A DNA stretch of 35,154 nt from Clostridiales bacterium (GTDB lineage: Bacteria > Bacillota > Clostridia > Christensenellales > Borkfalkiaceae): NCBI GenBank assembly GCA_015055805.1, contig SVHN01000014.1:1-35154 (forward strand), read 5' to 3'. Below the pieces are notes generated by a model, which worked only from the letters and a program-made list of their open reading frames with translations, was not told the DNA's origin and ran no database searches. The position numbers and the translations under genes are program-made. Below, one piece after another: positions 11,451-35,154 of this stretch (position 1 is its first letter; the number at the start of each line of letters is the position of its first letter).

Positions 11451-11489
11451 AACCTAATAACGATAAATCACCTAATGGAAAAACGTATT

Positions 11490-13387: not shown

Positions 13388-13417
13388 ATAGAAAAGTATA
13401 GTTTCAAAGGAGCAAAC

Positions 13418-16102: not shown

Positions 16103-16110
16103 GGTGAATT

Positions 16111-18261: not shown

Positions 18262-18273
18262 TAGGAGAAGATT

Positions 18274-18558
18274 ATGATAAAACATATAGTATGCTTTAAA
18301 CTAAAAGAAGGCGAAAGCGCAGAAAAAGCAAAGGAAGTATTGCTTTCAATGAAAGGCAACGTACCGCTTATTAGAGATATAGAAGTGGGAATAGACGTTT
18401 TGCACTCTGAGCGTTCGTACGACCTTATTTTAAGCGTTGTATTAGACGATATGAAAGCACTAGAAGAATATCAAGAAGACGAATATCACGTAAACGTTGT
18501 GAAAAAACATATGCACGCGGTTAGAAAGTCAAGTGTTTCGATTGACTTTGAAATTTGA
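18274..18558 (+). CDS. Dabb (stress-responsive alpha/beta barrel) domain protein
   Basis: Small 94-residue protein opening MIKHIVCFKLKEGESAEKA, the standard start of the Dabb fold, a dimeric ferredoxin-like barrel. Family members range from stress proteins to small cyclases and decarboxylases, so function cannot be assigned. It has ATAGGAGAAG before the ATG, follows tsaD by 12 bases and closes the metK operon. The tRNA-Leu promoter begins inside its last codons. Confidence 0.85.
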   Translation: MIKHIVCFKLKEGESAEKAKEVLLSMKGNVPLIRDIEVGIDVLHSERSYDLILSVVLDDMKALEEYQEDEYHVNVVKKHMHAVRKSSVSIDFEI

Positions 18559-20351: not shown

Positions 20352-20380
20352 AATTTTTATAGCGAATTTTCAGTTTTCTA

Positions 20381-20409
20381 TTTACAAGTATTGAAAAAAA
20401 TTGTATAAT
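20381..20409 (+). promoter_or_regulatory. promoter of the superoxide reductase gene
   Basis: TTTACA (20381-20386), 17-base spacer, TATAAT (20404-20409), about 40 bases before the start codon. Confidence 0.75.
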
Positions 20410-20449
20410 AAATAAAAGTACGACAAATGAAGAAAAGGAGTTAATATAT

Positions 20450-21070
20450 ATGGAACAAAAATTTTTTAGATGCAGTCATTGTGGAAATATCATAGCTTTT
20501 GTTAAAAACGCTGGAGTTCCCGTTATGTGTTGTGGGCAAAAGATGGAAGAACTCGTGCCCGGTAGCGTTGACGCTGCTCAAGAAAAACACTTGCCGACTT
20601 TTACAGTGGAAGATAATAAGGTATACGTTTTTGTCGGTGAAGTCGAGCATCCTATGACTGAAGAGCATTACATAGAGTGGATATCATTACAGACAAAGCA
20701 GGGCAATCAAAGAAAGGTTTTACGCCCAGGTGAAATGCCTGCAACCTGTTTTAACATTTGTAATGGTGACGAAGTTGAGGCGGTTTATGCGTACTGCAAT
20801 CTTCACGGATTATGGAAGACCGAGAATAAACAAGAACCCGTTTGCGATCTTAAACCCATCGAACCGCATGCAAACGAAAATTATCTGGTTTGCAAGTGCA
20901 ATAACGTAACCTACTTTGATATAATAAACGCAGTTCATAGTGAAAATGATATGTCAAATCTTCTAAAAGTTTTTGATAAGGTCAAGGAGACCACGCATTG
21001 TTCGCAAGGTTGCGGTGGATGTTACGGTAGAGTTATAGCGATTATATCCGACGAAATAAACGGGAAATAA
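20450..21070 (+). CDS. desulfoferrodoxin (superoxide reductase) fused to a BFD-like [2Fe-2S] domain
   Basis: Reduces superoxide to peroxide in the anaerobe's cytoplasm. Residues 1-38 form a desulforedoxin-type rubredoxin centre (C8, C11, C27, C28). Residues 40-125 form the superoxide reductase domain with the catalytic E45-K46-H47, H67, H73, C116 and H119, which together give the Fe(His)4Cys site. Beyond the usual end at about 125, residues 146-206 show CxC (C148, C150) and CxxxCxxC (C184, C188, C191), the pattern of bacterioferritin-associated ferredoxin domains. The third centre could feed electrons to the catalytic iron. AAGGAG precedes the ATG by about nine bases. Monocistronic. Confidence 0.9.
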   Translation: MEQKFFRCSHCGNIIAFVKNAGVPVMCCGQKMEELVPGSVDAAQEKHLPTFTVEDNKVYVFVGEVEHPMTEEHYIEWISLQTKQGNQRKVLRPGEMPATCFNICNGDEVEAVYAYCNLHGLWKTENKQEPVCDLKPIEPHANENYLVCKCNNVTYFDIINAVHSENDMSNLLKVFDKVKETTHCSQGCGGCYGRVIAIISDEINGK

Positions 21071-21088
21071 TATTAATAAAATATAATA

Positions 21089-21125
21089 AAAAAATGCTGA
21101 CAAAAATTTTTTGCCAGCATTTTTT
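21089..21125. terminator. bidirectional terminator between convergent genes
   Basis: AAAAAATGCTG (21089-21099) pairs with CAGCATTTTTT (21115-21125); the loop itself contains CAAAAA/TTTTTG. The T-rich right side ends the superoxide reductase transcript and the A-rich left side ends the AraC gene. Confidence 0.8.
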
Positions 21126-22002
21126 ATTTGTTGTTTGCGGTTTGTTTAAATGACGATGGGGGATTGCCGTATTGCTTTTTAAAAGCTTTGCTAAAAGCAT
21201 ATATCGAAGAATAACCTAGTTTTTCGGCAATTTCCGTCAGCGAATATTTACCTGAAAAAATTAATTCTTTGGCTTTCTCTAACTTTTGAAACTGATAGTA
21301 ATCGCTTAGGTTTTGCGAACAATGCTTTTTAAATATTGCAGATAGATAAGGATAACTATAATTAAACCGTTCACAGAGTTCGTTTAGACTTTTTATGGTG
21401 AAAATATTAGAATTTATATAATCCATAATAAGATAACACATTTGTTCCCATTGGTCGGGGTTGGTAAACTTTTTTGCAGATGCCCTAGGTGAAAAGTTTT
21501 TAATAATATTGGCAATAACAAGGTTAAGAGCTGCGTTCATTGATAAATCCTTAAACGGATTTTCGTCAACGATTTCGGTGATGCAGTAGTCGACTAAAGA
21601 GGCGAGTTGTGTGTTTCTAAAAAGTCTAGTATCGGGTTGTAAATATTCAAGCGCAATCTTGTCTAACTCTTGTTTTAGACGGCTATTTTCCGTGTTAAAG
21701 GAGATAAAGTCATACTTTAACGGGTGCTTTTTATCCGATTCAATCTTATGAATATCGGTGGGAAGAGTTAAATAGATATCGTTTTTATTCAACTTTACGG
21801 GCACGTTATTCGTGGTCATAACGCCTTCGCCGTCTAAGACTATTGTCAGTTCGTAGTATTTTGAGTGTGCGTGCGCGTCGAATAAAAGCTCGGCAGAATT
21901 AGATGAGAAAAATCTGCCGATTTGGAATAGGTAGGTGTCACCGAATTTTAACGGATCGGGCACATGTATAATGTCTAAATGAAAAACTTTTTTATTATCC
22001 AT
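21124..22002 (-). CDS. AraC family transcriptional regulator
   Basis: Probable activator of the divergent carbohydrate operon. The 292-residue protein has an N-terminal cupin-like sensor domain (HAHSKYYELTIVLDGEG, then PVKLNKNDIYLTLP) and a C-terminal AraC double helix-turn-helix (from IKSLNELCERFNYSYPYLSA to SLTEIAEKLGYSSIYAFSKA). The start ATG at 22002 has no ribosome site and coincides with the predicted transcript start, so the mRNA may be leaderless. The ligand is unknown, presumably a sugar derivative. Confidence 0.9.
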   Translation of the reverse strand: MDNKKVFHLDIIHVPDPLKFGDTYLFQIGRFFSSNSAELLFDAHAHSKYYELTIVLDGEGVMTTNNVPVKLNKNDIYLTLPTDIHKIESDKKHPLKYDFISFNTENSRLKQELDKIALEYLQPDTRLFRNTQLASLVDYCITEIVDENPFKDLSMNAALNLVIANIIKNFSPRASAKKFTNPDQWEQMCYLIMDYINSNIFTIKSLNELCERFNYSYPYLSAIFKKHCSQNLSDYYQFQKLEKAKELIFSGKYSLTEIAEKLGYSSIYAFSKAFKKQYGNPPSSFKQTANNK

Positions 22003-22008
22003 AATCAG

Positions 22009-22037
22009 ATTATATTATTAAACCAAATCATTGTCAA
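22009..22037 (-). promoter_or_regulatory. promoter of the AraC regulator
   Basis: On the minus strand TTGACA (22037-22032), 17-base spacer, TATAAT (22014-22009): full consensus. Seven bases downstream of the -10 is the A of the ATG at 22002. Confidence 0.85.
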
Positions 22038-22138
22038 GTAAATGTCTGAAAAATAAAAAATAACAACAAATAAGTAAAAATTGAATTATATAACGGTGAA
22101 ATATTAAAAAATGACAAATTTTCTAATAAGTATAGATA

Positions 22139-22167
22139 TTTACAATAAAAGGGTAAAATGATATAAT
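22139..22167 (+). promoter_or_regulatory. promoter of the oxidoreductase/isomerase operon
   Basis: TTTACA (22139-22144), 17-base spacer, TATAAT (22162-22167), about 23 bases of leader, then AGGAGAAG before the ATG. The 100 bases between this and the AraC promoter are AT-rich and likely hold the AraC binding sites, though no clear direct repeat is visible. Confidence 0.75.
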
Positions 22168-22196
22168 CGAAGAAAAACAAAATTTAGGAGAAGAAT

Positions 22197-23252
22197 ATGA
22201 AAACTGTTGCGGTTATTGGTTGTGGAAGAATTGCAGACATGGCGCATTTTCCTGCGCTTAGTAAGCTTGAAAACGTTAGAATAAAATACGCGTGTGATTT
22301 TATACTAGAAAAAGCCGAAAAGGCAAAGGAAAAGTACCCCAAGATTGAACGGGTTATTACCGATTATAAAGTCGCTCTAAACGACCAAGAAGTTGACGCG
22401 ATTTTCGTTTTAACCCCGAACTTTGCGCACTACACTATAACGATGGACGCATTGAGGGCGGGAAAGCACGTTCTTTGCGAAAAGCCTATTACGGTAAACT
22501 ATAAACTTTCTGAAGAGATGGCAAACCAAGCAAAAGCCCAGAACAAAATTTTAAATATAGGCGTTTGCAACAGATACCATAAATCGGTTGAAATGCTTAA
22601 AGAGTGGAACGACCAAGGCAAATTCGGCAATATTTACCACGCCTACTGTTCGTTCAGAAGTTTTAGAAATATACCGGGGCTTGGCGGTGCGTTCACCACA
22701 AAGAGTCAGTCGGGCGGCGGCGTACTTATCGACTGGGGCGTACACTTCCTTGATTTAGTGCTTTACGTTCTCGGTGGTGCAAAACTTAAAACCGTTTCCG
22801 CGAACGCTTACTGTGAAATGGCAAAGGATATGAAATCGTATAAGTACGAAGGAATGTGGGCGGAAGATACCGCCGATATAGAGAACGGCACCAACGACGT
22901 AGACGATTTTATTACAGGCTTTATTAGAACTGATAAAGCAAGTATATCCTTTAACGGTGCTTGGGCGCACAACGTAAAGAAAGAAGAAATGTATATCGAC
23001 TTTATGGGCGATAAGGGCGGCGCAAGATTAAACTACGGCGGAAAGTTTGAGTTTTATGACGGCGCAACGTTAGAGACCGTAAAACCCGAATACGATATTC
23101 CGAATATGTATTATATGGAAGATAAAGCGTTTATCGAGTCCATTGAAACGGGCGTAAAGGACAAGAACAATATTGAAAACATCTTGGAAACAATGAAACT
23201 TCTCGATGCGCTTTACGCGTCGTCAGATAATAAACAGGAGATTAAATTCTAA
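22197..23252 (+). CDS. Gfo/Idh/MocA family oxidoreductase (1)
   Basis: NAD(P)-dependent dehydrogenase of sugars, inositols or glycosides. The Rossmann loop is IGCGRIADMAHF (residues 7-18) and the catalytic lysine motif is LCEKPITVN. The C-terminal alpha/beta domain has the GGVLIDWGVHFLDL segment whose His helps in hydride transfer. 351 residues is normal. First of four genes with 0-17 base spacing; its stop overlaps the next start (TAATG). Substrate is not readable from sequence. Confidence 0.9.
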   Translation: MKTVAVIGCGRIADMAHFPALSKLENVRIKYACDFILEKAEKAKEKYPKIERVITDYKVALNDQEVDAIFVLTPNFAHYTITMDALRAGKHVLCEKPITVNYKLSEEMANQAKAQNKILNIGVCNRYHKSVEMLKEWNDQGKFGNIYHAYCSFRSFRNIPGLGGAFTTKSQSGGGVLIDWGVHFLDLVLYVLGGAKLKTVSANAYCEMAKDMKSYKYEGMWAEDTADIENGTNDVDDFITGFIRTDKASISFNGAWAHNVKKEEMYIDFMGDKGGARLNYGGKFEFYDGATLETVKPEYDIPNMYYMEDKAFIESIETGVKDKNNIENILETMKLLDALYASSDNKQEIKF

Positions 23253-24097
23253 TGAAAACTATCGGTTTTATTGATTATTATATAAGTGAGTGGCATGCAA
23301 ACAATTATCCTACTTGGATAAAAGAAGTTTGTGAAAAAGAAGGCTTAGATTTTAAGGTAGAATACGCGTGGGCTGAACTAGACGTTTCACCCCTAGATAA
23401 TCGTAGCACGGAAGAGTGGTGTAAAGAATTCGGTGTTCAAAAATGCAGTAGCATAAAAGAAGTTTGCGAAAAAGCCGACTATATTTTAATACTTGCTCCG
23501 TCCGATCCTGAAAAACACTTAGCCTATGCAGAAGAAGCCTTAAAGTATGGAAAAAACACCTATATAGACAAGACGTTTGCGCCTGATTTTAATACGGCGG
23601 AAAAGATATTTGAACTAGGTGAAAAATATAACACTAAGTTTTTCAGTTCGTCAGCATTAAGGTATGCAACTGAACTCGACGATATGGTCGACACCAAGTC
23701 GGTCGTAACGCTTGGTGGCGGCGGCAATATGCCCGAATACATTATTCATCAGATAGAAATGGCTGTAAAACTTCTTAACGATACGGCTAAGAGATTAAGG
23801 GTAGAAAAGGTTGGCGACAATCAATACGTTACTTTTGTAGAGTTTGATAACGACAAGAAAGCAACCTTTAACTATTCGGTAGCAAACCCGTTTGCTGTAA
23901 GTTGCCAAGCAATGGATAAGCGTTCGCGTTTTTCGGTTATAAGGTCTGATTTCTTTAAGATTTTGATTGCAGATATTCTTAAATTTTATCAAACTAGCAA
24001 AACTTCTTTTAATACCGAACAAACGCTAGAAGTTATGAAAATCCGCGAGGCTGTAATAGCCGGCATGGAAAAGAACGGACAATGGATAACGCTTTAA
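23252..24097 (+). CDS. Gfo/Idh/MocA-like oxidoreductase (2), divergent
   Basis: At 281 residues it is shorter than its neighbours and lacks a clean GxGxxG at the N-terminus (MKTIGFIDYYISEWHANNYP instead). The middle keeps the Rossmann-type LILAPSDPEKHLAYAEEAL and an IDKTFAPD that corresponds to the EKP catalytic loop, with Lys kept. It may bind the cofactor atypically or act as a partner subunit. Coupled by TAATG to the gene before. Family assignment is good, activity uncertain. Confidence 0.75.
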   Translation: MKTIGFIDYYISEWHANNYPTWIKEVCEKEGLDFKVEYAWAELDVSPLDNRSTEEWCKEFGVQKCSSIKEVCEKADYILILAPSDPEKHLAYAEEALKYGKNTYIDKTFAPDFNTAEKIFELGEKYNTKFFSSSALRYATELDDMVDTKSVVTLGGGGNMPEYIIHQIEMAVKLLNDTAKRLRVEKVGDNQYVTFVEFDNDKKATFNYSVANPFAVSCQAMDKRSRFSVIRSDFFKILIADILKFYQTSKTSFNTEQTLEVMKIREAVIAGMEKNGQWITL

Positions 24098-24114
24098 TAA
24101 GCAAGGGAAAAAAC

Positions 24115-25125
24115 ATGAGTGATTTTAGGGTCGGAATAGTCGGTTGTGGAAGAATTTCCGTAATGCATTTAGTGTCGCTTGCTAATATCGACGGAGTTAA
24201 ACTCGTTGCTTGCTGTGATATAAAGAAAGACAGGGCGGATAGCGTAGCGGAAAAATACGGCGTAAAAGCGTATTATTCGTACGAACAAATGATAGAAGAG
24301 CAAAACCTTGACGCAATCCATATATGTTTACCGCATTATTTGCATTGCAAAGTCGCGTGTTACGCTTTTAGTAAGGGTATAAACGTAATAACCGAAAAAC
24401 CTATGGACGTGGATTTTGAAAGCGCAAAAGCCGCAGTTGACATGGCAAAAGCGAAAGGCGTTTTGTTTGGCGTTATATCGCAATGTAGATATAATAACTC
24501 TGCTAGACTGGTTAAAAATGCTGTTACAAGCGGTAAACTCGGCAAAATCATAGCTGCCGTTTCCACGCTTACTTGGTCAAGATCAGACGATTATTATATG
24601 GAAAGCGACTGGAAAGGCACTTGGGATAAGGAGGGCGGCGGCGTGGTTATAGACCAAGCAATACACTCAATCGACCTTGTCAACTGGATTATAGATTCAG
24701 AAATAGAAAGTGTCAACTGTTCAATGTCAAATCGCGGTCACTCTATAGTAAAGGTAGAAGATACCGCAGAAGGTTTAATAACCTATAAAAACGGTGCAAG
24801 ATACGCCTTTTATTGTATGAATAATTACGGCTGCGACGAGCCTATCGAAATTAAACTGTTGTGCGAAAAAGGCAAGGTCGTTTTCGGCTATGACGACGCA
24901 TATATCTACTATAACGACGGCACGACGGAAGAGGCGCATCAAGACGTAAATACAGTAACTTACGAGGGCGGAAAAGATTACTGGGGGTTTCAGCACGTTC
25001 GTCAACTAAACCAGTTTTACAATGCGTTAAAGGGCAAAGAACCGCTTGAAATAAGCGGCGAAGAAGGATTAAAAACTCATAAACTCATTATGGAAATCTA
25101 TAAAAAAGGTGGAATGAAAAAATGA
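24115..25125 (+). CDS. Gfo/Idh/MocA family oxidoreductase (3)
   Basis: Full-length dehydrogenase of 336 residues with the cofactor loop VGCGRISVMHL near the N-terminus, the EKP motif in ITEKPMDVDFE and the GGGVVIDQAIHSIDL catalytic segment. I start it at 24115, where AAGGG lies eight bases before ATG; an upstream ATG at 24082 sits inside the preceding gene and adds a non-conserved extension. Its stop overlaps the isomerase start (ATGA). Confidence 0.9.
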   Translation: MSDFRVGIVGCGRISVMHLVSLANIDGVKLVACCDIKKDRADSVAEKYGVKAYYSYEQMIEEQNLDAIHICLPHYLHCKVACYAFSKGINVITEKPMDVDFESAKAAVDMAKAKGVLFGVISQCRYNNSARLVKNAVTSGKLGKIIAAVSTLTWSRSDDYYMESDWKGTWDKEGGGVVIDQAIHSIDLVNWIIDSEIESVNCSMSNRGHSIVKVEDTAEGLITYKNGARYAFYCMNNYGCDEPIEIKLLCEKGKVVFGYDDAYIYYNDGTTEEAHQDVNTVTYEGGKDYWGFQHVRQLNQFYNALKGKEPLEISGEEGLKTHKLIMEIYKKGGMKK

Positions 25126-25967
25126 AAATAGGCGTTATAACAGACTGTTTTAAGAAGAGCCATTTTGACGGTATCAAGTCAGCCGCAAAAATGGGACTTG
25201 ACGGCGTTCAGATATATGCAACTACGGGAGAGTTTTCACCCGAACTTACCGAAGAACAAAAAGACAAGTACAAGGCAGAACTAAGGTCTAACAACTTGGT
25301 CGTATCTGCTCTGTGTGGTGATATGGGCGGTTTCGGGTTTGAGATTGAAAAGGACAATCCCGATCGAATCGAAAAGACCAAAGCGATTATCGACCTTGCG
25401 GTAGAATTTGACGCAAAATTCGTTACAACCCATATAGGTGTTATTCCTGAGAATAAGGAAGAACCAAGGTATAAAGTTATGTTATCTGCGCTTACCGAGT
25501 GTGGACTTTATGCAAAGAAAAAGGGCGTAACGCTTGCTATTGAAACAGGTCCGGAAAAAGCCAAAACGCTACTGAATTTTTTAGAAGATACCAAAGGCGG
25601 TGTCGGTGTAAACCTTGATCCTGCGAACTTTACCATGGTTACAGGTCAAGATGCGGTCGAGGCGGTTCATATATTAAAGGACTATATCGTGCATACACAC
25701 GCAAAAGACGGGATAATGCTTGATAAAAATCAAGATCCAACCGACGTTTATCATGCATTTGCAGTCGGTGGCGTAGATGCGCTCAATGCTTGTAGCGGAT
25801 TTAAGGAAGTACCGTTAGGGGAAGGACAGGTTGACTGGAAAAATTATATTGCTGCCCTAAAAAGTATCGGTTACGACGGGTTTTTAACAATTGAGAGAGA
25901 GTGTGGCGATAACCCCGAGGCTGATATAGAAAAAGCCGTGACCTTTTTAACGGAAATAATAAAATAA
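25122..25967 (+). CDS. sugar phosphate isomerase/epimerase-like TIM-barrel protein
   Basis: AP endonuclease 2-type TIM barrel, 281 residues, the fold of xylose isomerases, IolE/IolH and keto-sugar epimerases. Metal ligands are visible as E in AIETGPE, D in NLDPANF, H in HTHAKD and E in LTIERE. Last gene of the operon, overlapping the previous one by four bases. Together with three Gfo/Idh/MocA enzymes it suggests oxidation to a keto-sugar followed by isomerisation or elimination; that pathway is inference. Confidence 0.88.
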   Translation: MKIGVITDCFKKSHFDGIKSAAKMGLDGVQIYATTGEFSPELTEEQKDKYKAELRSNNLVVSALCGDMGGFGFEIEKDNPDRIEKTKAIIDLAVEFDAKFVTTHIGVIPENKEEPRYKVMLSALTECGLYAKKKGVTLAIETGPEKAKTLLNFLEDTKGGVGVNLDPANFTMVTGQDAVEAVHILKDYIVHTHAKDGIMLDKNQDPTDVYHAFAVGGVDALNACSGFKEVPLGEGQVDWKNYIAALKSIGYDGFLTIERECGDNPEADIEKAVTFLTEIIK

Positions 25968-25985
25968 TTAAAACTTAAATGAAAG

Positions 25986-26015
25986 AACGCAATGCCAAGG
26001 TGTTGCGTTTTTTAC
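25986..26015 (+). terminator. terminator of the carbohydrate operon
   Basis: AACGCAA (25986-25992) pairs with TTGCGTT (26003-26009), followed by TTTTAC and another T run, 19 bases after the stop codon. Confidence 0.85.
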
Positions 26016-26035
26016 TTTTTAAATTAAATAACGGC

Positions 26036-26064
26036 TTGAAAGGAACGCGATAATATGCTATACT
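26036..26064 (+). promoter_or_regulatory. promoter of the flavin reductase-SDR operon
   Basis: TTGAAA (26036-26041), 17-base spacer, TATACT (26059-26064), then AAGGAG before the ATG at 26098. Confidence 0.7.
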
Positions 26065-26097
26065 TATTAAAATACTTGATTATATAAGGAGAAAACA

Positions 26098-26658
26098 ATG
26101 AGAAAGAACTTAAAACCTAAAGCGTACGTTTATCCATTGCCCGTGCTAATCGTGGGTACTTATGACGAGAACGGCGTTGCAGACGCAATGAACGCTGCGT
26201 GGGGAACAGTTTGTGATAATGCGCAAGTGTCGATATGTTTAAGTGCAACGCATAAGACGGTCAAAAATTTATTAAAAACTAAGGCGTTTACCGTTGCAAT
26301 GGCAGATGTTAAAAATATTATACCTGCCGATTACGTTGGTGTGGTTTCAGCAAACGAAGAGCCTAATAAATTAGCAAAGACTGGCTGGAAAATAACAAAG
26401 AGTAATTTTATCAACGCGCCTATAATTGAAGATTTACCGCTTGTTTTAGAGTGTAAACTCGTTAGTTATGACCCTGATACGGAAATTTGTATCGGTGAAG
26501 TAGTCAACGTAAATGCAGACGAGAGTATTCTTGACGAGAAAGGCAAGGTCGATTTAACCAAGTTTAAGCCTATTTGTTACGATTGTGATACTTACGGTTA
26601 TTACTCGCTGGGTGAAAAGGTCGGTCAAGCGTTTTCCGACGGGTTAAAACTTAAATGA
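26098..26658 (+). CDS. flavin reductase-like / flavoredoxin-type FMN-binding protein
   Basis: 186-residue split-barrel protein. The N-terminal PLPVLIVGTYDENGVADAMN and the following MNAAW segment match flavin reductase-like domains that bind FMN and pass electrons to partners; HKTVKNLLKTKAFTVAM is also typical. Possible role is an electron carrier or flavin reductase in the cytoplasm. Translationally coupled by ATGA to the SDR gene. Partner and electron donor cannot be named. Confidence 0.85.
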   Translation: MRKNLKPKAYVYPLPVLIVGTYDENGVADAMNAAWGTVCDNAQVSICLSATHKTVKNLLKTKAFTVAMADVKNIIPADYVGVVSANEEPNKLAKTGWKITKSNFINAPIIEDLPLVLECKLVSYDPDTEICIGEVVNVNADESILDEKGKVDLTKFKPICYDCDTYGYYSLGEKVGQAFSDGLKLK

Positions 26659-27449
26659 AATACGCGCTAGTTACGGGTGCTTACGGCGGAATGGGATACA
26701 GTACGGTAAAGGAATTAGTGTCCCACGGTTATACCGTTTTTGCACTCGATAAAAAGGTTAAAGAAAAAGAAGATAACGTTGTCCCGATAGAAGTGGACGT
26801 TACCGACGCTAAGAGCGTCAAATCTGCGTTTAGAAGTGTTTGCGCGGTTACGGACGAACTTGCAACCGTAATCCACTTTGCTGGGGTTTATATGCTCGAT
26901 TCGTTGGTTGAAATTCCCGATGAAGATTTTGAACGGATTTTCAAGATTAATCTTTACGGCGCGTTTTACGTCAATAAAGTTTTTATGCCACTACTTAAAA
27001 GTGGTAGTAAGATAATTATGACCACAAGCGAATTAGCACCACTTGATCCATTGCCTTTTACAGGAATATATTCGGTAACTAAAAGCGCGCTTGATAAATA
27101 CGCGTATTCGCTAAAAATGGAACTTCAACTTTTAGGTGTTTCCGTTTCAGTTATAAGGGCAGGCGCGGTATCAACGGGAATGCTAGGGGTATCAACTGCG
27201 GCACTTGATAAATTCTGCCAAAAGACGACAAATTATGAGTGTAATGCAAAAAGGTTTAAGAAGATAGTTGAAAGTGTTGAGTCAAAATGTGTTCCGCCAG
27301 AGAAGATAGCCAAAAAAACGCTTAAAATTCTAAATAAAAAATCACCAAAATTCGCTTATAGCGTAAATAGAAATAAACTTTTATTACTGTTTAACGTATT
27401 GCCATCAAGTTTGCAATTTTGGGCAATAAAAAAGATATTAAAGAAATAG
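26655..27449 (+). CDS. short-chain dehydrogenase/reductase
   Basis: 264-residue NAD(P)-dependent oxidoreductase with cofactor loop TGAYGGMG (residues 7-14), N99, and the catalytic triad S125, Y139 and K143 (YSVTK). The C-terminal 60 residues are basic and end in a hydrophobic patch (LLLLFNVLPSSLQFW), which hints at membrane contact as in some sterol or lipid SDRs. Overlaps the flavin protein by four bases. Substrate unknown. Confidence 0.9.
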   Translation: MKYALVTGAYGGMGYSTVKELVSHGYTVFALDKKVKEKEDNVVPIEVDVTDAKSVKSAFRSVCAVTDELATVIHFAGVYMLDSLVEIPDEDFERIFKINLYGAFYVNKVFMPLLKSGSKIIMTTSELAPLDPLPFTGIYSVTKSALDKYAYSLKMELQLLGVSVSVIRAGAVSTGMLGVSTAALDKFCQKTTNYECNAKRFKKIVESVESKCVPPEKIAKKTLKILNKKSPKFAYSVNRNKLLLLFNVLPSSLQFWAIKKILKK

Positions 27450-27480
27450 TTTTTTTGAGATCGTTTCTTTAAGCATTTTT
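27438..27480 (+). terminator. weak AT-rich terminator after the SDR gene
   Basis: TTAAAGAAA (27438-27446) and TTTCTTTAA (27464-27472) form a 9-bp stem with a 17-base loop, followed by GCATTTTTT. The left arm overlaps the SDR stop region. All A-U pairs but one per arm, so efficiency may be low. Confidence 0.4.
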
Positions 27481-27491
27481 TAATAACTTAA

Positions 27492-27528
27492 AAGGCAAAG
27501 AGACGAGAATTTGGGCAAATCTTGCCTT
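27492..27528. other. hairpin upstream of the CRISPR-Cas locus
   Basis: AAGGCAA (27492-27498) pairs with TTGCCTT (27522-27528), and the loop contains an inner ATTT/AAAT stem. No T run follows, so it is not an obvious terminator. No coding frame is seen in 27450-27640. Confidence 0.4.
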
Positions 27529-27555
27529 GTGAAATGGAAAATTAAAAAATTTTAT

Positions 27556-27580
27556 AAATATGACTAAAGTTGTCATATTT
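27556..27580. promoter_or_regulatory. operator-like inverted repeat upstream of cas9
   Basis: AAATATGAC-N7-GTCATATTT is a perfect 9-bp inverted repeat with a 7-base spacer, the geometry of a dimeric repressor site. TATAAT hexamers occur shortly after (27587-27592 and 27596-27601) but without convincing -35 boxes. Confidence 0.4.
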
Positions 27581-27642
27581 AATGTCTATAATGGTTATAA
27601 TTTATAAAATTTTATTTAAATACAACTATTTTATATAAAAAG

Positions 27643-27667
27643 AAAAAAGCTCTCCAGTAAGGAGAGC
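27643..27667 (-). terminator. tracrRNA terminator
   Basis: A perfect 7-bp stem GCTCTCC/GGAGAGC with a 5-base loop followed by six T on the minus strand. Confidence 0.85.
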
Positions 27668-27733
27668 GACATCGCCAAATGCGAATAAATGGTTAGAATA
27701 AATCTTTATTTGAACTCGTCTTGTTTATTCTGC
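27643..27733 (-). ncRNA. tracrRNA of the type II-A CRISPR system
   Basis: Predicted RNA of about 91 nt, opposite in strand to cas9 and ending 54 bases before it. It starts seven bases after a consensus promoter, runs through an anti-repeat-like segment (about 27703-27733, containing AACAAGACGAGTTCAAATAA), then a nexus-like stem AATAA-AGAT-TTATT, a small GCAT/ATGT stem and finally the terminator GCTCTCC-TTACT-GGAGAGC-TTTTTT (27643-27667). Order, size and position match tracrRNAs. It predicts crRNA repeats beginning close to GTTTGAACTCGTCTTG. No such repeat is found elsewhere in the window. Confidence 0.8.
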
Positions 27734-27739
27734 AAGATT

Positions 27740-27768
27740 ATTATAACTATAAAAAATGAAAAAGTCAA
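27740..27768 (-). promoter_or_regulatory. tracrRNA promoter
   Basis: On the minus strand TTGACT (27768-27763), 17-base spacer, TATAAT (27745-27740). It overlaps the region where a cas9 promoter must act on the other strand, so the two transcripts may interfere. Confidence 0.82.
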
Positions 27769-27786
27769 CTTTTTGAGAGGAACAAA

Positions 27787-30700
27787 ATGAAAAAATTTTA
27801 TTTGGGTATGGATATTGGAACTGAATCGGTTGGTATGGCTTGCACGGATGAAAATTACGATTTACTACGCGCAAAAGGAAAGGATTTATGGGCAGTGCGC
27901 TTATTTGATGAAGCAAACGACGCAAAAGAACGTCGGACAAAAAGAGCGGCACGTAGAAGACTTCAGCGTCGCAGACAGCGTATCGAATGGTTACAGGACG
28001 TATTTGCGCCCTTTATGAAAGATGAATTATTTTTTCTACGCTTAAATAATAGCGGCTTTTATAAAGAAGATAAAGATAAAAGATTGGTCTCAAAGTTTTC
28101 ATTATTTAATGATGTTGGTTATACAGATAAGGAGTTTTATAAAGAATATCCTACAATATTTCATCTTCGTGAGAAATTGCTTAAGGAACCAGATGCAAAG
28201 ATAGATTTGCGTCATTATTATCTTGCATTGCATCATATTGTCAAATATCGTGGGCATTTCCTTTTTGAAGGTGAAAACATGGGGGATGTTCGGGATATTA
28301 AGAAATTATTCAAAAATTACAACGATTTAATTAGCGAATATGGGATAGAACTTGACTTGTGTTTATCTGAAGCCAAGGCTGAAGCTTTTAAGACGTTGGC
28401 TCTTTATGGAAAAGGAAAAAATGACAAAAAAAAGGAAGGAATACTTTTGTTTGGAGCGACGAGTGTAGAGAAAAAAGAGTGGATTGCTCTTTTGTTAGGC
28501 TCTACTGTTTCGCCTAAAAAGATGTTTGGAGAAGATTATCAAGAAAGGTATAAAGAAGAGAAAGCCTTCTCTTTTGATGGACTTACAGATGAGGCCTTTG
28601 AAGCAATGCAAGAAAATTATGAGGAAGAACATTTTGCATTGTTGCAAGCAGCTCGTTCCATTTATAACTTTACCGTTTTCGAAAGGGTATTGGAGGGTAG
28701 TTCTTGCATTTCAGAGGCGATGGTTGCGATCTATAAGAAACATAAAGAAGATTTGAAATTGCTGAAAGACTTTGTGAAAGAAAATTACACACAAGAAGTG
28801 TACTATAAAATTTTCCGTAGTCGTAAAGAAACAGCAAACTACGTTAATTATATAGGTTATAATCAATCTAAAGGCATAAAATCATCTGTTTCAAAATGTA
28901 AAGAAGAAAATTTTTATAAATTCCTTGTAAAGGTACTAAAGTCCGAAACAGTTGTCTATAAAGAAAAGTTGGGTAAGATTATCAAAGAACTCGACGAGAA
29001 AACTTTCTTGCCGAAGATTTTGCACGCTGACAACGGCTTGTTTCCGCATCAAATCAATGAAATGGAATTAAATATGATTTTAGAAAATCTCTGCAAACAA
29101 TACCCTGAGTTTGTCCAAATAGGTGATGACGGGTATTCGCCTAAACAAAAGATTGAAAAGATTTTCAAATTTAAAATTCCTTACTACGTCGGACCGTTAA
29201 ATACTGCAAGTGCTAATGCGTGGATGAAACGTAACGATGGTTTAGCGGAAAAAATTACGCCTTGGAATTTTGACTCTATTGTAGATAGAGCGGGAAGCAA
29301 CGAGGAATTTATTCGTCGTATGACCAATAAATGCACTTATTTGAGAGGTAAAGACGTGTTGCCCAAGTGCTCTATGTATTATCAAGCTTTTGACGTTCTT
29401 AATCAAATCAATAAATTGACAATAGAAGGTGCACCTATATCACTTTCATTAAAACAAGAGATTTTTCAAAACGTATATCTTTTCAATAAAAAGGTGACGG
29501 CAAAACAAATTAGGGAATATTTAGTAAAACAAGGTTATTGTACACAAGAAGAAAGCAGCAACGTTTTAGGCGGATTTGATAATCTCGCAGACTTGAAGGC
29601 AAGTATGAGTTCTTACGTTGGTTTTAAGACAAAATTTGGCTCTTTGGTAGACAGTAATCCTGAAATGTTTGAAAATATAATACTTTGGCACACCTTAAAT
29701 AGCGACAAAACGATTGTAGAAGAAATTGTTTTAAGAGAGTATGGAAATATTTCTGCAATTAGAGAAAATATTAAGTGGTTAAAAAGTTTGACTTCTTTTA
29801 AGGAATTTGGAAGACTATCAAAAGAATTATTGCTTGATATTGTAGGTGGTGTAGATCAAGCGACGGGGGAAATTTATACGATTTTAAATCGCCTATATAA
29901 TACTAACTATAATTTTAATCAATTATTGTTTGCTGATGAGTATAATTTTAGAAAAGAAATAGAAGAGAACAACGGTGGAGTAAATAAGGAAGAAATAACG
30001 TACGATGACGTAAGAGAATTGTATGTATCTCCTATGGTGCGCCGTGGTGTTTGGCAAGCGTTACAGATGACGAAAGAATACGTTCATGCAGTAGGAAAGA
30101 CACCCAACAAAATTTTTATCGAAGTCACCCGTCAAGATGGGGAAAAGGGTGAAAGAGGACGCAAGGCATCGCGCAAAAATAAACTTATGGAACTTTACAA
30201 AGAGATAGGTTCAGATTGTCGTGATATCGAAGAGTTGACTAAAGAATTAACACACCAAGATATTACAGATTCTCGTTTGCGTTCAGAACGCTTATATTTA
30301 TATTTCTTACAGCTAGGAAAGTGTGTTTATACGGGTAATCGTATCAATTTGGAAGAATTGATGGGTAATCGATATGACGTTGACCATATTATTCCACAAT
30401 CTATGACGAAAGATGATAGTGTCGATAACAAGGTGTTAGTAGAGCGTCAAAAGAACGCAGAAAAAACAAATCAATATCCATTGCCTGAGGGCTTTACGAC
30501 ACAACAAAACTTTTGGAAATTATTGAAAGTCAAAGGTTTAATGAGCGAGTCAAAGTTTAATCGATTAGCAAGAGTGAAACCTTTGTCTGATGACGATTTT
30601 AGAGAATTTATTAATCGTCAACTTGTCGTTACTAATCAAACCGTAAAAGCTGTGGCAGAGCTTTTAAAACAAAAGTATGAACCGTTGGGTACAAAAATTG

Positions 30701-31872
30701 TTTACAGTAAAGCGAAGAACGTTGATGATTTTAAGCAAAGGCATGGCATCGTTAAATGCCGTGAAACTAATGATTTACACCACGCTCGTGATGCGTATTT
30801 GAATATCGTAGTTGGGAATATTTACGATACTAAATTCACTTCAAAATACGCTTATAGATATACGGATAAAGAAGGCACTTCTCGTGAGTACAATTTAGAT
30901 AATTTATATCGTTGGAAGATCGACGGTGCATGGAATGGTGCTAGTGATATTGTTAGAGTAAAGAAAATTGTCGCAAGAACAAGTATGTGTGTGACAAGAT
31001 ATGCTTATACCAACCAAGGTGCTTTTTATGACGAAACGATTTATAATAAAGATGATGGTGCCATCGCTTTGCCTCGCAAAATGTCCATGCCATATGTTCA
31101 AACTGAAAAATACGGTGGTTTTAAATCGTTGAAGACGGCCTACTTTGCAATAGTGCAAAGTAAGGATAAGAAAGGGTGTTTAATTAAAACCATAGAGGCA
31201 ATTCCCGTACTTGTAGATTATCAAGCGAGGCAAGATGCTTGCGCGGTTATAAGATATTTGCAAAGAAAAGGATTGGTAGAGCCTAAACTTATCGTGCAAA
31301 AACTAAAGATGAAATCTTTAGTTGCTATAAATGGATATAATGCATGGTTGGCAGGGGTTACAGGTAATCGAATTTTGATTCACAATGCAGTGCAATGGTT
31401 TACAAAACCTGAAGTAGATAATTATATTAAACAACTTTTAAAATATATTGAGAGAGATAAAGAGGGTAAACTTTCAATATCAGAAAAAGAAAGCGACAGT
31501 ATTTCTTTGACACAAAACAGACAAAAGGTTTCGCTATATGCTACAAAAGAAGAAAATTTAAAGATATATAATGGCATTATTTCAAAATTGAATCAAAAGC
31601 CTTATCAAGGATTATCAAGTGTAAGAGCTTTCTCTAAAAAACTTCAAGAAAAGGCAAGGCTATTTAAAGATATAACAACTTTTGAACAAATTAAGGTATT
31701 ATTGCAAATTGTTCGTTTTATGAAGTGTAATGCTGAATGTTCAGATTTATCTTTGTTAAAAGATGGGACGACTTGTGGCAAGTTATTGATTGGTAAAAAT
31801 ATTACCAACGTCGATTTCTCAATTATTCATCAATCTCCTTGCGGTTTAGTTGAGCGTATTCAAAAAGTTTAA
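27787..31872 (+). CDS. cas9: CRISPR-associated endonuclease Cas9 (type II-A)
   Basis: RNA-guided DNA endonuclease of 1361 residues, full length for type II-A. RuvC-I is YLGMDIGTESVG with D9; an Arg-rich bridge helix follows (ERRTKRAARRRLQRRRQR, about 48-65). RuvC-II is KIFIEVTRQ with E779. The HNH nuclease has YDVDHIIPQS with D866 and H867 and the downstream Asn in DNKVLV. RuvC-III is HHARDAY with H999 and D1002. All nuclease residues are present, so it should cut both strands. GAGAGGAAC lies before the ATG. Codon use is more AT-rich than the housekeeping genes, consistent with acquisition. TAATG couples it to cas1. Confidence 0.96.
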   Translation: MKKFYLGMDIGTESVGMACTDENYDLLRAKGKDLWAVRLFDEANDAKERRTKRAARRRLQRRRQRIEWLQDVFAPFMKDELFFLRLNNSGFYKEDKDKRLVSKFSLFNDVGYTDKEFYKEYPTIFHLREKLLKEPDAKIDLRHYYLALHHIVKYRGHFLFEGENMGDVRDIKKLFKNYNDLISEYGIELDLCLSEAKAEAFKTLALYGKGKNDKKKEGILLFGATSVEKKEWIALLLGSTVSPKKMFGEDYQERYKEEKAFSFDGLTDEAFEAMQENYEEEHFALLQAARSIYNFTVFERVLEGSSCISEAMVAIYKKHKEDLKLLKDFVKENYTQEVYYKIFRSRKETANYVNYIGYNQSKGIKSSVSKCKEENFYKFLVKVLKSETVVYKEKLGKIIKELDEKTFLPKILHADNGLFPHQINEMELNMILENLCKQYPEFVQIGDDGYSPKQKIEKIFKFKIPYYVGPLNTASANAWMKRNDGLAEKITPWNFDSIVDRAGSNEEFIRRMTNKCTYLRGKDVLPKCSMYYQAFDVLNQINKLTIEGAPISLSLKQEIFQNVYLFNKKVTAKQIREYLVKQGYCTQEESSNVLGGFDNLADLKASMSSYVGFKTKFGSLVDSNPEMFENIILWHTLNSDKTIVEEIVLREYGNISAIRENIKWLKSLTSFKEFGRLSKELLLDIVGGVDQATGEIYTILNRLYNTNYNFNQLLFADEYNFRKEIEENNGGVNKEEITYDDVRELYVSPMVRRGVWQALQMTKEYVHAVGKTPNKIFIEVTRQDGEKGERGRKASRKNKLMELYKEIGSDCRDIEELTKELTHQDITDSRLRSERLYLYFLQLGKCVYTGNRINLEELMGNRYDVDHIIPQSMTKDDSVDNKVLVERQKNAEKTNQYPLPEGFTTQQNFWKLLKVKGLMSESKFNRLARVKPLSDDDFREFINRQLVVTNQTVKAVAELLKQKYEPLGTKIVYSKAKNVDDFKQRHGIVKCRETNDLHHARDAYLNIVVGNIYDTKFTSKYAYRYTDKEGTSREYNLDNLYRWKIDGAWNGASDIVRVKKIVARTSMCVTRYAYTNQGAFYDETIYNKDDGAIALPRKMSMPYVQTEKYGGFKSLKTAYFAIVQSKDKKGCLIKTIEAIPVLVDYQARQDACAVIRYLQRKGLVEPKLIVQKLKMKSLVAINGYNAWLAGVTGNRILIHNAVQWFTKPEVDNYIKQLLKYIERDKEGKLSISEKESDSISLTQNRQKVSLYATKEENLKIYNGIISKLNQKPYQGLSSVRAFSKKLQEKARLFKDITTFEQIKVLLQIVRFMKCNAECSDLSLLKDGTTCGKLLIGKNITNVDFSIIHQSPCGLVERIQKV

Positions 31873-32753
31873 TGGGTTTCCGTACTGTAATTATTAAAAA
31901 CAGAGCAAAATTAGAAGTTCGCTTGAATAGTTTAATCGTACGTGGTGAACAGGAAAAGAAAGTTTTTTTGGATGAAATCGATACGTTGATTGTTCAAAGT
32001 ACGGCGGTTTCTTTAACTGCCTCTTTGTTATGCGAGTTGGTAAAAAGAGATATTAAAGTAATTTTTTGTGACGAAAAACACAATCCGCAATCAGAACTTT
32101 TGCCATATTATAGTGCGCATAATACTTCTAAACGTTATAAAGAGCAAATTGCGTGGAAAGACGAAATAAAAGCAAAAGTTTGGCGTGAGATTGTAAAAAA
32201 GAAGATAGAAGGGCAAGCGCAACATTTGCTTGATGTTAATTTTTTTGAACAAGCTGATTTATTGTATTCCTATATGCGTGAAGTGCAAGACAACGACTTA
32301 AGCAATCGTGAAGGACATGCAGCGAAAGTGTATTTTAATTGTTTGCTTGGGTTAGGCAATAGTAGAAAATCTGGGGGATTTGTAAATGGGTGCTTAAACT
32401 ATGGGTACGCTGTTTTACTGTCTGCATTTAATCGAGAAATTGCGTCTAGTGGATATTTAACACAGTTAGGGATATGGCATGATAATGAATTTAACGAGTT
32501 TAATTTGGCCTGTGATTTAATGGAGCCTTTTCGAATAGTCGTGGATAGAACTGCAATGTGTTTGGTAGAAGGAGATAAAGAGTTTAAGAAAAAAATGACT
32601 AACGTTTTGAATTATAAAACTATTATTGATGGAAAAAATACTACGCTTGATTTAGCAATACGGCAATTTACAAAAAGTGTTTTTCGCGCATTGCAAGAAG
32701 AGAATGAAAATTTGTTGATTTTTCCCGAAAAAATTATACAAGATGAATTATAA
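31872..32753 (+). CDS. cas1: CRISPR spacer integrase Cas1 (type II)
   Basis: Inserts new spacers into the array as a Cas1-Cas2 complex. At 293 residues it is normal for type II. The catalytic metal site is complete: E147 in NREGHAAKVYF, H203 in GIWHDNEFN and E218 (with D215) in CDLMEPFR. No deletion or stop is seen. It starts on the last base of the cas9 stop and overlaps cas2 by 11 bases, so the three genes form one translation-coupled operon. Confidence 0.95.
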   Translation: MGFRTVIIKNRAKLEVRLNSLIVRGEQEKKVFLDEIDTLIVQSTAVSLTASLLCELVKRDIKVIFCDEKHNPQSELLPYYSAHNTSKRYKEQIAWKDEIKAKVWREIVKKKIEGQAQHLLDVNFFEQADLLYSYMREVQDNDLSNREGHAAKVYFNCLLGLGNSRKSGGFVNGCLNYGYAVLLSAFNREIASSGYLTQLGIWHDNEFNEFNLACDLMEPFRIVVDRTAMCLVEGDKEFKKKMTNVLNYKTIIDGKNTTLDLAIRQFTKSVFRALQEENENLLIFPEKIIQDEL

Positions 32754-33063
32754 ATTTATGAGATTGATGCTATTTTTTGATTTGCCCATGATAACGGACA
32801 AAGATAGACGTGAGTATAACCGTTTTCATAAATATCTTTTGAAAAACGGATTCATTATGATGCAAAAATCCGTTTACACAAAACTTGTTATAAATAACGT
32901 AACAAGTGCAGCAGTAAAACAACGTATCCGTAACAACCTTCCTAATGATGGAATAGTAGAACTCTTAGAAATTACCGAAAATCAATTTTCAAAGATAGAG
33001 TATCTTGTTGGTGAAGAACAGCAACTTGTTATTGATACAATGGATAGATTGGTGGAGTTATGA
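32743..33063 (+). CDS. cas2: CRISPR-associated protein Cas2
   Basis: Structural partner of Cas1 in spacer capture, with a ferredoxin-like fold. The 106-residue product has MRLMLFFDLP near its start (the conserved Asp is at residue 13) and a normal length for type II. The ATG at 32743 overlaps the end of cas1; an internal ATG at 32758 is a second option. Its stop overlaps the csn2-derived start in ATGA. Confidence 0.93.
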   Translation: MNYKFMRLMLFFDLPMITDKDRREYNRFHKYLLKNGFIMMQKSVYTKLVINNVTSAAVKQRIRNNLPNDGIVELLEITENQFSKIEYLVGEEQQLVIDTMDRLVEL

Positions 33064-33281
33064 AACATGAAATTAAAATCTCACACGTGCATTTGGAAAC
33101 ACCACTTACCATATCGGATGAATACGTTCAATTGCTAATTGTTGAAAATCCAACTGAGTTTTATAATATGGTGTCAGAATTAGATGGTCAATTTGACGGA
33201 AAAGAAGGATCGTTTGTCTTTTCGGTAAATGATGAAGTTGTTGCAGCTGAAAAGCATGGTGTAATGATATCGGAGGGTAAA
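33060..33281 (+). pseudogene. csn2: csn2 remnant (5' third)
   Basis: About 72 codons of a Csn2-like protein following cas2 by the normal ATGA overlap. Csn2 proteins are normally about 220 residues or more; the rest, including the helical leg and the ring contacts, is absent. The join to the reductase leader lies near 33268-33281. Assignment rests on gene position and on by-eye similarity to the Csn2 N-terminus. Confidence 0.7.
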
Positions 33282-34970
33282 ATGAAAATTGTAATAGTTG
33301 GTGGGGTTGCAGGTGGTGCAACTGCCGCAGCAAGAATAAGAAGACTCAACGAACACGCAGAAATTATTATTTTTGAGCGTTCGGGTTTTATTTCATACGC
33401 AAATTGTGGTTTGCCGTATTATATCGGTGGCGTTATTGAAGATAAAGAAGATTTGACACTTCAAACTCCCGAAAGTTTCTTTCGCCGTTTTAGAATTATG
33501 GCAAAAGTTAATCACGAAGTAACCGATATTGACGTGAAAAACAAAACTGTTCACGTAACCGATTTAAAGACGGGAACGAGTTTTGCTGAAACCTACGATA
33601 AACTCATTTTGTCACCTGGGGCAAAACCGATTTTGCCAGATTTCTATACTGAAAATGAAAGAACTTTTACACTCCGTACCATAGAAGATACACTTAAAAT
33701 TCGTGATTTTGTTGAACAAAAAAAGCCTAAGACTGCAATTGTTGTAGGTGGTGGCTTTATCGGTCTTGAAATGGCTGAAAACCTTGCTGAATTAGGAATT
33801 AAAACTTCCATTATTCAGCGTGGCAATCATCTTTTACCGACGGTTGACTGTGATATGGCGTCCTTCATTCATGCGAACTTCCGTCATCACGGCGTACAAT
33901 TGTTACTAAACGTTAATACGAATAAAATGAATATTACAAACGACCAAGTTTCACTTGATCTTGATAATGGCTTAAGCATAAGTGCTGATATGGTCATACT
34001 TTCAGTTGGTGTTACACCCGAAAATACACTTGCTAAAAAGATAGGTTTAGAACTTGGTGTTAAAGGCGCAATAAAAGTTAACGCCAAGATGGAAACTTCA
34101 ATTCCCGATATCTATGCAGTAGGGGACGCAACCCAAGTAAAGCATTTTATAACCGATAAAGATTCTGCAATTTCACTTGCAGGACCTGCCAACAAGCAAG
34201 GTCGCATAGTTGCTGATAATATTTGTGGCTTAAATAGCGAATATAAAGGCTCGCAAGGCTCATCGGTAATTAAACTTTTTGATATGACCGTTGCGACTAC
34301 TGGTATTAACGAACATCAAGCCAAAACAAACGGCATAGAATACGAAAAGGTTATTCTAACGCAAAACTCACACGCTGGCTATTATCCAGGCGCAATGGTT
34401 ATGACCGTTAAACTCATTTTTGAAAAGAAAACCTATAAGATTTTAGGTGCGCAAATCGTTGGCTATGACGGTGTTGATAAGCGCATTGACGTTATTGCAA
34501 CGGCAATTAGGGCAGGTATGAAAGCAGATGAACTAAAAGATTTAGACCTTGCTTACGCTCCGCCGTATTCTTCTGCAAAAGACCCCGTAAATATGGCAGG
34601 CTTCGTTGTTGAAAACATCAAAAACGGCATAGTTAAACAGTTTTATTATGAAGATATTCCGTCTTTAAGAGAAAGAGATGACTTGATTTTGCTTGATACT
34701 CGCACACCTTTTGAATACATGCGTGGACATGCAGAAGATTTTATCAATATTCCACTTGACGATTTAAGAGATCGCTTAGGCGAACTTGATAAAACGAAGA
34801 AAATCTACGTTATGTGCCAAAGTGGCTTGCGCAGTTATCTTGCAACTCGCATTTTAATGCAAAACGGCTTTAACGCCTACAACTTTGCAGGTGGTTTTAG
34901 ATTATACAGCAGTATCAAAAACGAAGAAATGCTATCAAAACAATGCTATACCTGTGGTATGGATAAGTGA
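33060..34970 (+). CDS. chimera: truncated Csn2 fused in frame to CoA-disulfide reductase with rhodanese domain
   Basis: One open frame of 636 residues. Residues 1 to about 72 resemble the start of Csn2 (short beta strands, then LLIVENPTEFYNMVSELD and GSFVFS), the ring-forming adaptation protein expected after cas2. From Met75 it is a complete CoA-disulfide or polysulfide reductase: FAD loop GGVAGGATAAARIRRL, redox Cys116 in SYANCGLPYY (Cys42 of that protein), a second GGGFIGLEMAE nucleotide fold, and a C-terminal rhodanese domain with YVMCQSGLRSY, ending CYTCGMDK. Cas2 is coupled by ATGA. The reductase also has its own ATG at 33282 with GGAGGG before it, so it may be made alone as 562 residues. 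About two thirds of Csn2 is missing. Confidence 0.85.
   Translation: MKHEIKISHVHLETPLTISDEYVQLLIVENPTEFYNMVSELDGQFDGKEGSFVFSVNDEVVAAEKHGVMISEGKMKIVIVGGVAGGATAAARIRRLNEHAEIIIFERSGFISYANCGLPYYIGGVIEDKEDLTLQTPESFFRRFRIMAKVNHEVTDIDVKNKTVHVTDLKTGTSFAETYDKLILSPGAKPILPDFYTENERTFTLRTIEDTLKIRDFVEQKKPKTAIVVGGGFIGLEMAENLAELGIKTSIIQRGNHLLPTVDCDMASFIHANFRHHGVQLLLNVNTNKMNITNDQVSLDLDNGLSISADMVILSVGVTPENTLAKKIGLELGVKGAIKVNAKMETSIPDIYAVGDATQVKHFITDKDSAISLAGPANKQGRIVADNICGLNSEYKGSQGSSVIKLFDMTVATTGINEHQAKTNGIEYEKVILTQNSHAGYYPGAMVMTVKLIFEKKTYKILGAQIVGYDGVDKRIDVIATAIRAGMKADELKDLDLAYAPPYSSAKDPVNMAGFVVENIKNGIVKQFYYEDIPSLRERDDLILLDTRTPFEYMRGHAEDFINIPLDDLRDRLGELDKTKKIYVMCQSGLRSYLATRILMQNGFNAYNFAGGFRLYSSIKNEEMLSKQCYTCGMDK
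33272..33284 (+). promoter_or_regulatory. internal ribosome site and start for the free CoA-disulfide reductase
   Basis: GGAGGG at 33272-33277, four bases, then ATG at 33282 opening MKIVIVGGVAGG, the natural start of the reductase. This suggests the reductase gene kept its own leader when joined to csn2. Confidence 0.7.
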
Positions 34971-35015
34971 TTGATAAATAAAAATTAGTATGATATTATG
35001 CTAAGTAAAAATAAA

Positions 35016-35044
35016 TTGACACAAAAAGCAAAATATGATATAAT
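35016..35044 (+). promoter_or_regulatory. promoter of the last, partial gene
   Basis: TTGACA (35016-35021), 17-base spacer, TATAAT (35039-35044): perfect consensus, with transcription expected near 35051. Confidence 0.85.
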
Positions 35045-35067
35045 CGCAAAAATGAATAAATACAAAT

Positions 35068-35110
35068 GGAACCAGCTGACTGTAGAGAACGTTGGTTCCT
35101 TTATGCTTTT
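35068..35110 (+). terminator. leader hairpin, possible attenuator
   Basis: GGAACCAGC (35068-35076) pairs with GTTGGTTCC (35091-35099) with a 14-base loop, then TTTATGCTTTTTAG. It lies between the promoter and the next start codon. The T stretch is broken, so termination may be weak. Confidence 0.4.
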
Positions 35111-35124
35111 TAGAGGAAAATCTT

Positions 35125-35154
35125 ATGGTTAGAAAAAAGAAAATCAAGCTTTCG
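35125..35154 (+). CDS. 5' end of an unidentified gene (partial)
   Basis: ATG at 35125 with AGAGGAAAA upstream opens MVRKKKIKLS and runs off the window. Ten codons are too few to name a product. The leader also contains a 26-codon frame from ATG 35052 to a TAG overlapping this start. Confidence 0.5.
   Translation, partial: MVRKKKIKLS

Follow-up and report, generated by a model that had tools for sequence, protein, structure and literature searches.

A csn2 remnant in frame with a predicted CoA-disulfide reductase gene, a probable deletion scar in a type II-A CRISPR-Cas locus

Genes at the Locus

The window analyzed here is the whole 35,154-nt stretch of DNA, from a Clostridiales bacterium of the family Borkfalkiaceae. 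Its right part carries a block of type II-A cas genes, and the open reading frame (ORF) that follows cas2 runs on into a metabolic gene. Genomes of the same genus are denoted by G numbers and loci used for comparison by L numbers. The features of the locus are the following.

26098-26658, plus strand, flavin reductase-like (flavoredoxin) gene, left flank (PF01613, E 1.2e-15)
26655-27449, plus strand, short-chain dehydrogenase (SDR) gene, left flank (PF00106)
27643-27735, minus strand, predicted tracrRNA with putative ends (promoter hexamers 27768-27740, terminator stem 27667-27649)
27787-31872, plus strand, cas9, full length, 1361 aa (TIGR01865, 829.5 bits)
31872-32753, plus strand, cas1, 293 aa (TIGR03639, 292 bits)
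32743-33063, plus strand, cas2, 106 aa (TIGR01573, 65.7 bits)
33060-34970, plus strand, Csn2-reductase ORF, 636 aa, no internal stop
33060-33275, plus strand, csn2 5' remnant, about 72 codons (TIGR01866; 64% identity to residues 1-72 of the L047 Csn2)
33268-33274, plus strand, junction TATCGGA, common to the upstream side of the reductase, csn2 side deduced from relatives
33272-33284, plus strand, reductase ribosome-binding site GGAGGG (33272-33277) and ATG (33282), read from the sequence, GGAGGG in seven of nine congener loci
33282-34970, plus strand, CoA-disulfide reductase with C-terminal rhodanese domain, 562 aa (family profiles, PDB match, congener copies)

The products of cas9, cas1, and cas2 are full length and exceed the cut-offs of TIGR01865, TIGR03639, and TIGR01573, respectively. 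Four motifs, which we take to be the catalytic ones of Cas9, are present in the window gene, as in L047 and L049. The tracrRNA unit consists of a TTGACT-17-TATAAT promoter and a hairpin with a T tract (fold z -2.07), and its sequence pattern can also be seen by eye upstream of cas9 in L047, L048, and L049. The tracrRNA is predicted from this shared pattern, the promoter, and the terminator.

The start ATG of the chimeric ORF and the cas2 stop overlap by 4 nt. The intact csn2 genes of L047, L048, and L049 show the identical arrangement, in agreement with the original prediction, which placed the chimera directly after cas2 in the usual position of csn2. The composition is also confirmed as first read: about 72 Csn2 residues are followed, without a stop, by a complete 562-aa CoA-disulfide reductase-rhodanese, according to matches to TIGR01866, the L047 Csn2, NF010037, and PF00581. 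The GGAGGG and the ATG at 33282 that the reductase was said to have kept are both present in the sequence. The boundaries can be refined: the Csn2 match stops at about residue 72 (base 33275), and 33268 is the first base of DNA homology on the side of the reductase.

Other elements were noted toward the ends of the window. Positions 209-260 (plus strand) match the Rfam family SpF59_sRNA (RF02440, named from Streptococcus) with 66.1 bits against a gathering threshold of 37.2. At 35016-35100 (plus strand), near the contig end, there is a perfect TTGACA-17-TATAAT with TG ahead of the second hexamer, followed by a GGAACCA...TGGTTCC inverted repeat found by eye. Elsewhere in the genome, the final 165 bases are matched only by two short, partial stretches, and the G003 contig stops within 6 nt of the position that matches the end of the window contig.

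The Csn2 Remnant

For the first residues of the chimera the original prediction had named two Csn2 profiles, and only one of them gave a match. TIGR01866 aligns its positions 1-65 (of 222) with residues 6-70 (E 5.5e-8) at 32.8 bits, just below the cut-off of 35; the stump gives no full-length match over the cut-off, and intact Csn2 relatives score 123-130 bits. PF09711 matches neither the stump nor anything else in the assembly. In the intact L047 Csn2, the sole relative scanned, this profile begins only at residue 44, and PF09711 was dropped as a test of the stump for that reason. When the L047 Csn2 was compared with the whole assembly at E <= 1, the sole match was the stump (residues 1-72, 64% identity, E 7.5e-25). 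The 3' part of csn2 was not found elsewhere in the assembly by this query, and its relocation within the genome was rejected. The stump is identical to the L047 protein at 46 of 71 positions, and L047 and L049 agree at 39 of 71. Such conservation fits a recent deletion and would also fit a retained function.

The S. pyogenes Csn2 is reported to have a globular domain made of two segments (residues 1-62 and 144-219); the first of these is followed by a hinge (63-72) and then by a helical domain (73-133) (PMC3316568). With the Csn2 family (TIGR01866, PF09711; PMC3316568) the chimera shares the first 72 or so residues, the place after cas2, and the 4-nt overlap with cas2, but, going by the domain boundaries given in that report, it has no helical domain, second hinge, or C-terminal half of the globular domain. 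As Csn2 is cut at the position matching the first hinge, the fold cannot be completed, and by this analogy the stump should be unable to form the Csn2 tetramer. In an AlphaFold2 model of the chimera (20 rows; mean pLDDT 84.4) the reductase is folded and the stump is predicted as strand-strand-helix-strand-strand, with means of 56-81 for blocks of 10 residues and values below 50 at the join (residues 70-73). The model is compatible both with and without a folded stump appendage.

The Reductase and Its Neighborhood in Congeners

The 3' part of the ORF is a predicted CoA-disulfide reductase. Residues 75-515 match NF010037 with 398.7 bits, over the cut-off of 394; the reductase stays below the cut-offs of TIGR03385 (519.5 against 578.8) and NF007123 (422 against 458), and the rhodanese domain (PF00581) is C-terminal of the reductase part. 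The best solved chain is the CoA-disulfide reductase 3icr (E 2e-171 over residues 73-623). The same full-length two-part enzyme is seen in the CoA-disulfide reductase-rhodaneses 3icr, 3ics, and 3ict and also in the CoA-persulfide reductase 8a56. Compared with these, the open frame of the chimera adds 74 residues, about 72 of them csn2-derived, ahead of the native start.

No other close copy exists in the genome, where the next match is 26% identical. The congener survey covered 44 genomes of the genus, including the window's own, with a reductase threshold of E <= 1e-40. Matches were obtained in 12 of the 44 genomes, and in 8 of the 11 others the reductase is at least 90% identical. G016, with two short fragments at 99%, is a ninth such congener; other short fragments could escape this threshold. 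Complete copies, 90-93% identical, were found in G003, G007, G011, G043, and G046, and weaker matches in G055 (65%), G059 (72% over 117 residues), and G002 (42%). Because complete copies with 90-93% identity are present in five congeners, import of a foreign reductase together with the cas genes was rejected. The original prediction had left open whether the redox gene was foreign or resident; it appears to be resident, and it adjoins genes that are its neighbors in congeners. The dN/dS ratio is 0.079-0.123 in the 5 pairs that include the window's copy and 0.068-0.126 in the 10 other pairs, with dN in the window pairs (0.039-0.051) slightly above that in the others (0.022-0.042). The reductase is under ordinary purifying selection, although dN/dS is an average over all of its history and does not refer to the time since the fusion alone.

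In congeners, the gene next to the reductase encodes a NifX-like protein of 135 residues (PF02579 in the G019 copy). All nine congeners with a reductase at least 90% identical encode this protein, and in eight of them, including both G016 copies, its gene immediately precedes that of the reductase; G008 has both genes truncated, each at the end of a different contig. The query for the NifX-like protein matched 13 of the 44 genus genomes and had no match at E <= 1 in the window's genome, and relocation of this gene within the genome was rejected on that result. The NifX-like gene occurs with no reductase match in G042, G013, and G047, where it is 92% identical and situated at a contig end. Of the genomes with weaker reductase matches, G055 and G002 lack a match to the NifX-like protein, and G059 has the two genes on separate contigs. 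A TTGAAA...TATAAT sequence precedes the NifX-like gene in 9 of 10 loci (by eye), and GGAGGG precedes the reductase in seven of nine congener loci, the exceptions being G003 and G007.

The left flank of the cas block has counterparts in the same neighborhood. The window flavoredoxin (26098-26658) shares 72, 75, and 79% amino acid identity with the NifX-side gene of G003, G011, and G019, respectively. In G003, the window genes 11442-18558, flavoredoxin, NifX, and the reductase follow in this order on a single strand; the window genes 19683-25967 and the SDR gene have no match within the 20 kb of G003 compared. Window DNA from 26098 to 27454 matches G019, where homology stops at 27454 and an AbiH gene (L041:2430-3704, minus strand) and then NifX-reductase follow. 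One G016 contig has an SDR gene (59% identical), a DUF3825 gene (L039:934-1701, minus strand), and NifX-reductase; another has a tyrosine integrase gene near NifX (L038:1824-3239, minus strand). Collinearity of the left flank with congeners is thus partial. To judge from these comparisons, the cas block occupies a variable slot beside the usual neighbors of the reductase, and the slot between flavoredoxin/SDR and NifX-reductase is possibly a small defense hotspot.

Relatives of the cas Block and the Missing Array

A Cas9 query on the named genome collection, from which records of very near genomes may be absent, yielded three loci, L047, L048, and L049, with best-segment identities of 66, 59, and 65%. 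Comparison with relatives had been proposed along with the original prediction, and all three loci have an intact csn2 (230, 233, and 229 aa, full length for TIGR01866) followed by an array with 36-nt repeats and a 66-nt period. The repeat pattern without its last base has 3, 3, and 21 exact copies in L047, L048, and L049, respectively. Two peculiarities of these loci were noted. In L048, cas9 has an in-frame stop at codon 273 despite the presence of csn2 and the array, which would be either a sequencing error or a further sign of decay in this Cas9 group. In L049, the array contains a run of N at about 16125-16225.

No array was found within positions 25900-35154 of the window. A genome-wide search, made with the expected repeat pattern only, and allowing 3 mismatches at most, gave 0 matches across the 1.73 Mb of the assembly (1 for the reversed-pattern control), and relocation of the array elsewhere in the genome was rejected accordingly. 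Without an array there are no crRNA guides. Adaptation in S. thermophilus and S. pyogenes is reported to require all four of Cas9, Cas1, Cas2, and Csn2 (PMC6620040). As neither a complete Csn2 nor an array was found, the locus should be incapable of either adaptation or interference, though Cas9, Cas1, Cas2, and the tracrRNA look intact.

Junction and Origin of the Chimera

Similarity of the window DNA to the congeners sets in at 33268, 14 nt ahead of the reductase ATG, in eight of the nine loci with upstream sequence, and at 33272 in G003. The heptamer TATCGGA is ahead of the reductase in seven of the nine. At the homologous csn2 site, L047 has TATCTGA, with six of the seven bases of TATCGGA, and L048 and L049 share five and three; at least six matches of seven are expected by chance in about 0.3% of position pairs. 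Judging the csn2-side sequence before the deletion from these relatives, we find that the data suggest a deletion at a 7-nt TATCGGA microhomology.

We consider the chimera to be a deletion scar in a degraded type II-A locus, with a probability of about 0.85 that covers either history, loss in place or arrival of a block already cut. In the first of these, a type II-A block (tracrRNA, cas9, cas1, cas2, csn2, and array) would have been situated in the slot between flavoredoxin/SDR and the NifX-reductase operon. One deletion in place, possibly aided by TATCGGA, would then have begun at about codon 72 of csn2 and ended 14 nt short of the reductase ATG. Lost with it would be some 477 nt of csn2 (going by its length in L047), the array with its leader, the NifX-like gene, and the operon promoter. 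The join would be in frame by chance, about 1 in 3. The single event in place and its mechanism are what we infer from these comparisons. The intact csn2 and array of the relatives support the original prediction that the 3' part of csn2 and the array were lost by deletion or recombination, which fused a redox gene to the rest. It had further offered a neutral scar or a redox protein expressed from the operon: both fit the comparisons, the scar is the most likely, and the loss of the NifX-like gene is now added. No conspecific strain with an undeleted locus was found. The assembly comprises 20 contigs at 95.7% completeness, and its gaps could contain the missing parts.

The other history belongs to the scar reading and does not exclude it. 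The cas block may have arrived already cut, the transferred segment ending within csn2 and replacing NifX, with no later deletion. The content of the slot differs among congeners (AbiH in G019; DUF3825 and the integrase in G016), and Cas1 matches at E <= 1e-20 occur only in 2 of the 43 other genus genomes, with 30 and 34% identity, as a transferred block would have it. We nevertheless regard this course as rather unlikely, since tracrRNA, cas9, cas1, and cas2 are intact and the stump is undecayed, which makes loss in place simpler; the end product is identical.

Expression and Possible Function

The TTGAAA-TATAAT of the NifX loci has no counterpart here, so the reductase is probably dependent on the cas transcript and would now be transcribed from the cas operon. 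No terminator-like site was found on the plus strand in 33060-33282. Terminator-like sites number 9 on both strands against 4.4 expected, and as those on the plus strand lie inside cas9, cas1, and the reductase, read-through along the operon is something that we can only infer. Promoter-like sites in 27440-35154 number 34, compared with 28.4 in shuffles (sd 5.4); with no clear excess, a new promoter inside the stump (33142-33169, 9 of 12) was discounted. Since the reductase has kept its own ribosome-binding site and ATG, the 562-residue form is likely the main product; translation would start mainly at 33282, and the 636-aa chimera would be minor or silent. In three of nine congener loci (G011, G043, and G046), too, the reductase frame continues upstream without a stop as far as an ATG 34 codons away, overlying the NifX end in another frame; G043 and G046 are sister genomes in the tree, and the three cases cannot all be counted as independent. 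Given these extensions, and as one random join in three is in frame, the in-frame join is not special by itself.

It is improbable that the chimera is a working protein maintained by selection, with the stump tethering or regulating the reductase or with the reductase recruited to the control of the cas operon. Agreement with such a role can be seen in the frame that stays open through the join, the stump that is not visibly decayed, the stretch 33060-33282 free of plus-strand terminator-like sites, and the model, which keeps a folded reductase and secondary-structure elements in the stump. On the other hand, all of Csn2 past residue 72 or so is gone, and the S. pyogenes globular domain, as described (PMC3316568), needs residues 144-219 too. 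None of the nine congener loci that include sequence upstream of the reductase contains a Csn2 part, the reductase retains a start of its own, its dN/dS is unremarkable, and an open upstream frame is also seen in three of these nine loci, two being sisters. In its boldest form, this role would mean that the cas operon captured a resident enzyme, and that a 636-residue Csn2-reductase is made and kept under the cas promoter with its Csn2-derived extension, while array-less Cas9 and tracrRNA persist; we consider this a long shot.

That two places were wrongly joined at 33268 by the assembler is highly improbable. The assembly consists of 20 contigs, the window contig stops 184 nt past the ORF, and the region appears hard to assemble, as several related metagenome-assembled genomes break within the reductase: contigs of G008, G016, G019, and G059 end inside it, and in G041 it is split over C17:237550-238182 (residues 1-211) and C13:3078-3668 (residues 366-562). 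But only about 7 nt are shared at the join, far below the k-mer length at which assemblers join sequences. The flavoredoxin and SDR genes left of the cas block adjoin the reductase operon in G019, as the flavoredoxin does in G003, and both lost partners, the csn2 3' part and NifX, have no match elsewhere in the assembly. A misassembly would have to hit the correct neighborhood by chance with some 7 nt shared, which speaks for a real join; with synteny arguing against misassembly, the join at 33268 is probably real.

Discussion

Degraded type II-A systems have been described in Mollicutes, where at least 8 of 21 systems are reported as inactivated or degraded (PMC6882279). The present locus is similar to those in that cas genes or arrays are partly lost or disrupted; the difference is that the available part of that report describes disrupted or undetected genes and no csn2 stump in frame with a metabolic gene. 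Among the matches listed in the open-access literature (titles and abstract starts) there is no Csn2-reductase chimera, in accordance with the original statement that none was known.

The locus provides a snapshot of CRISPR-Cas decay, in which a single deletion may strip both memory and adaptation while sparing the effector genes and the tracrRNA. The same deletion may make a resident metabolic gene part of the cas transcript. For annotators it is a caution that such in-frame chimeras should not be taken as new domain architectures. If the reductase is indeed driven by the cas promoter, the locus would serve as a natural experiment on why cas9-cas1-cas2 operons persist without an array.
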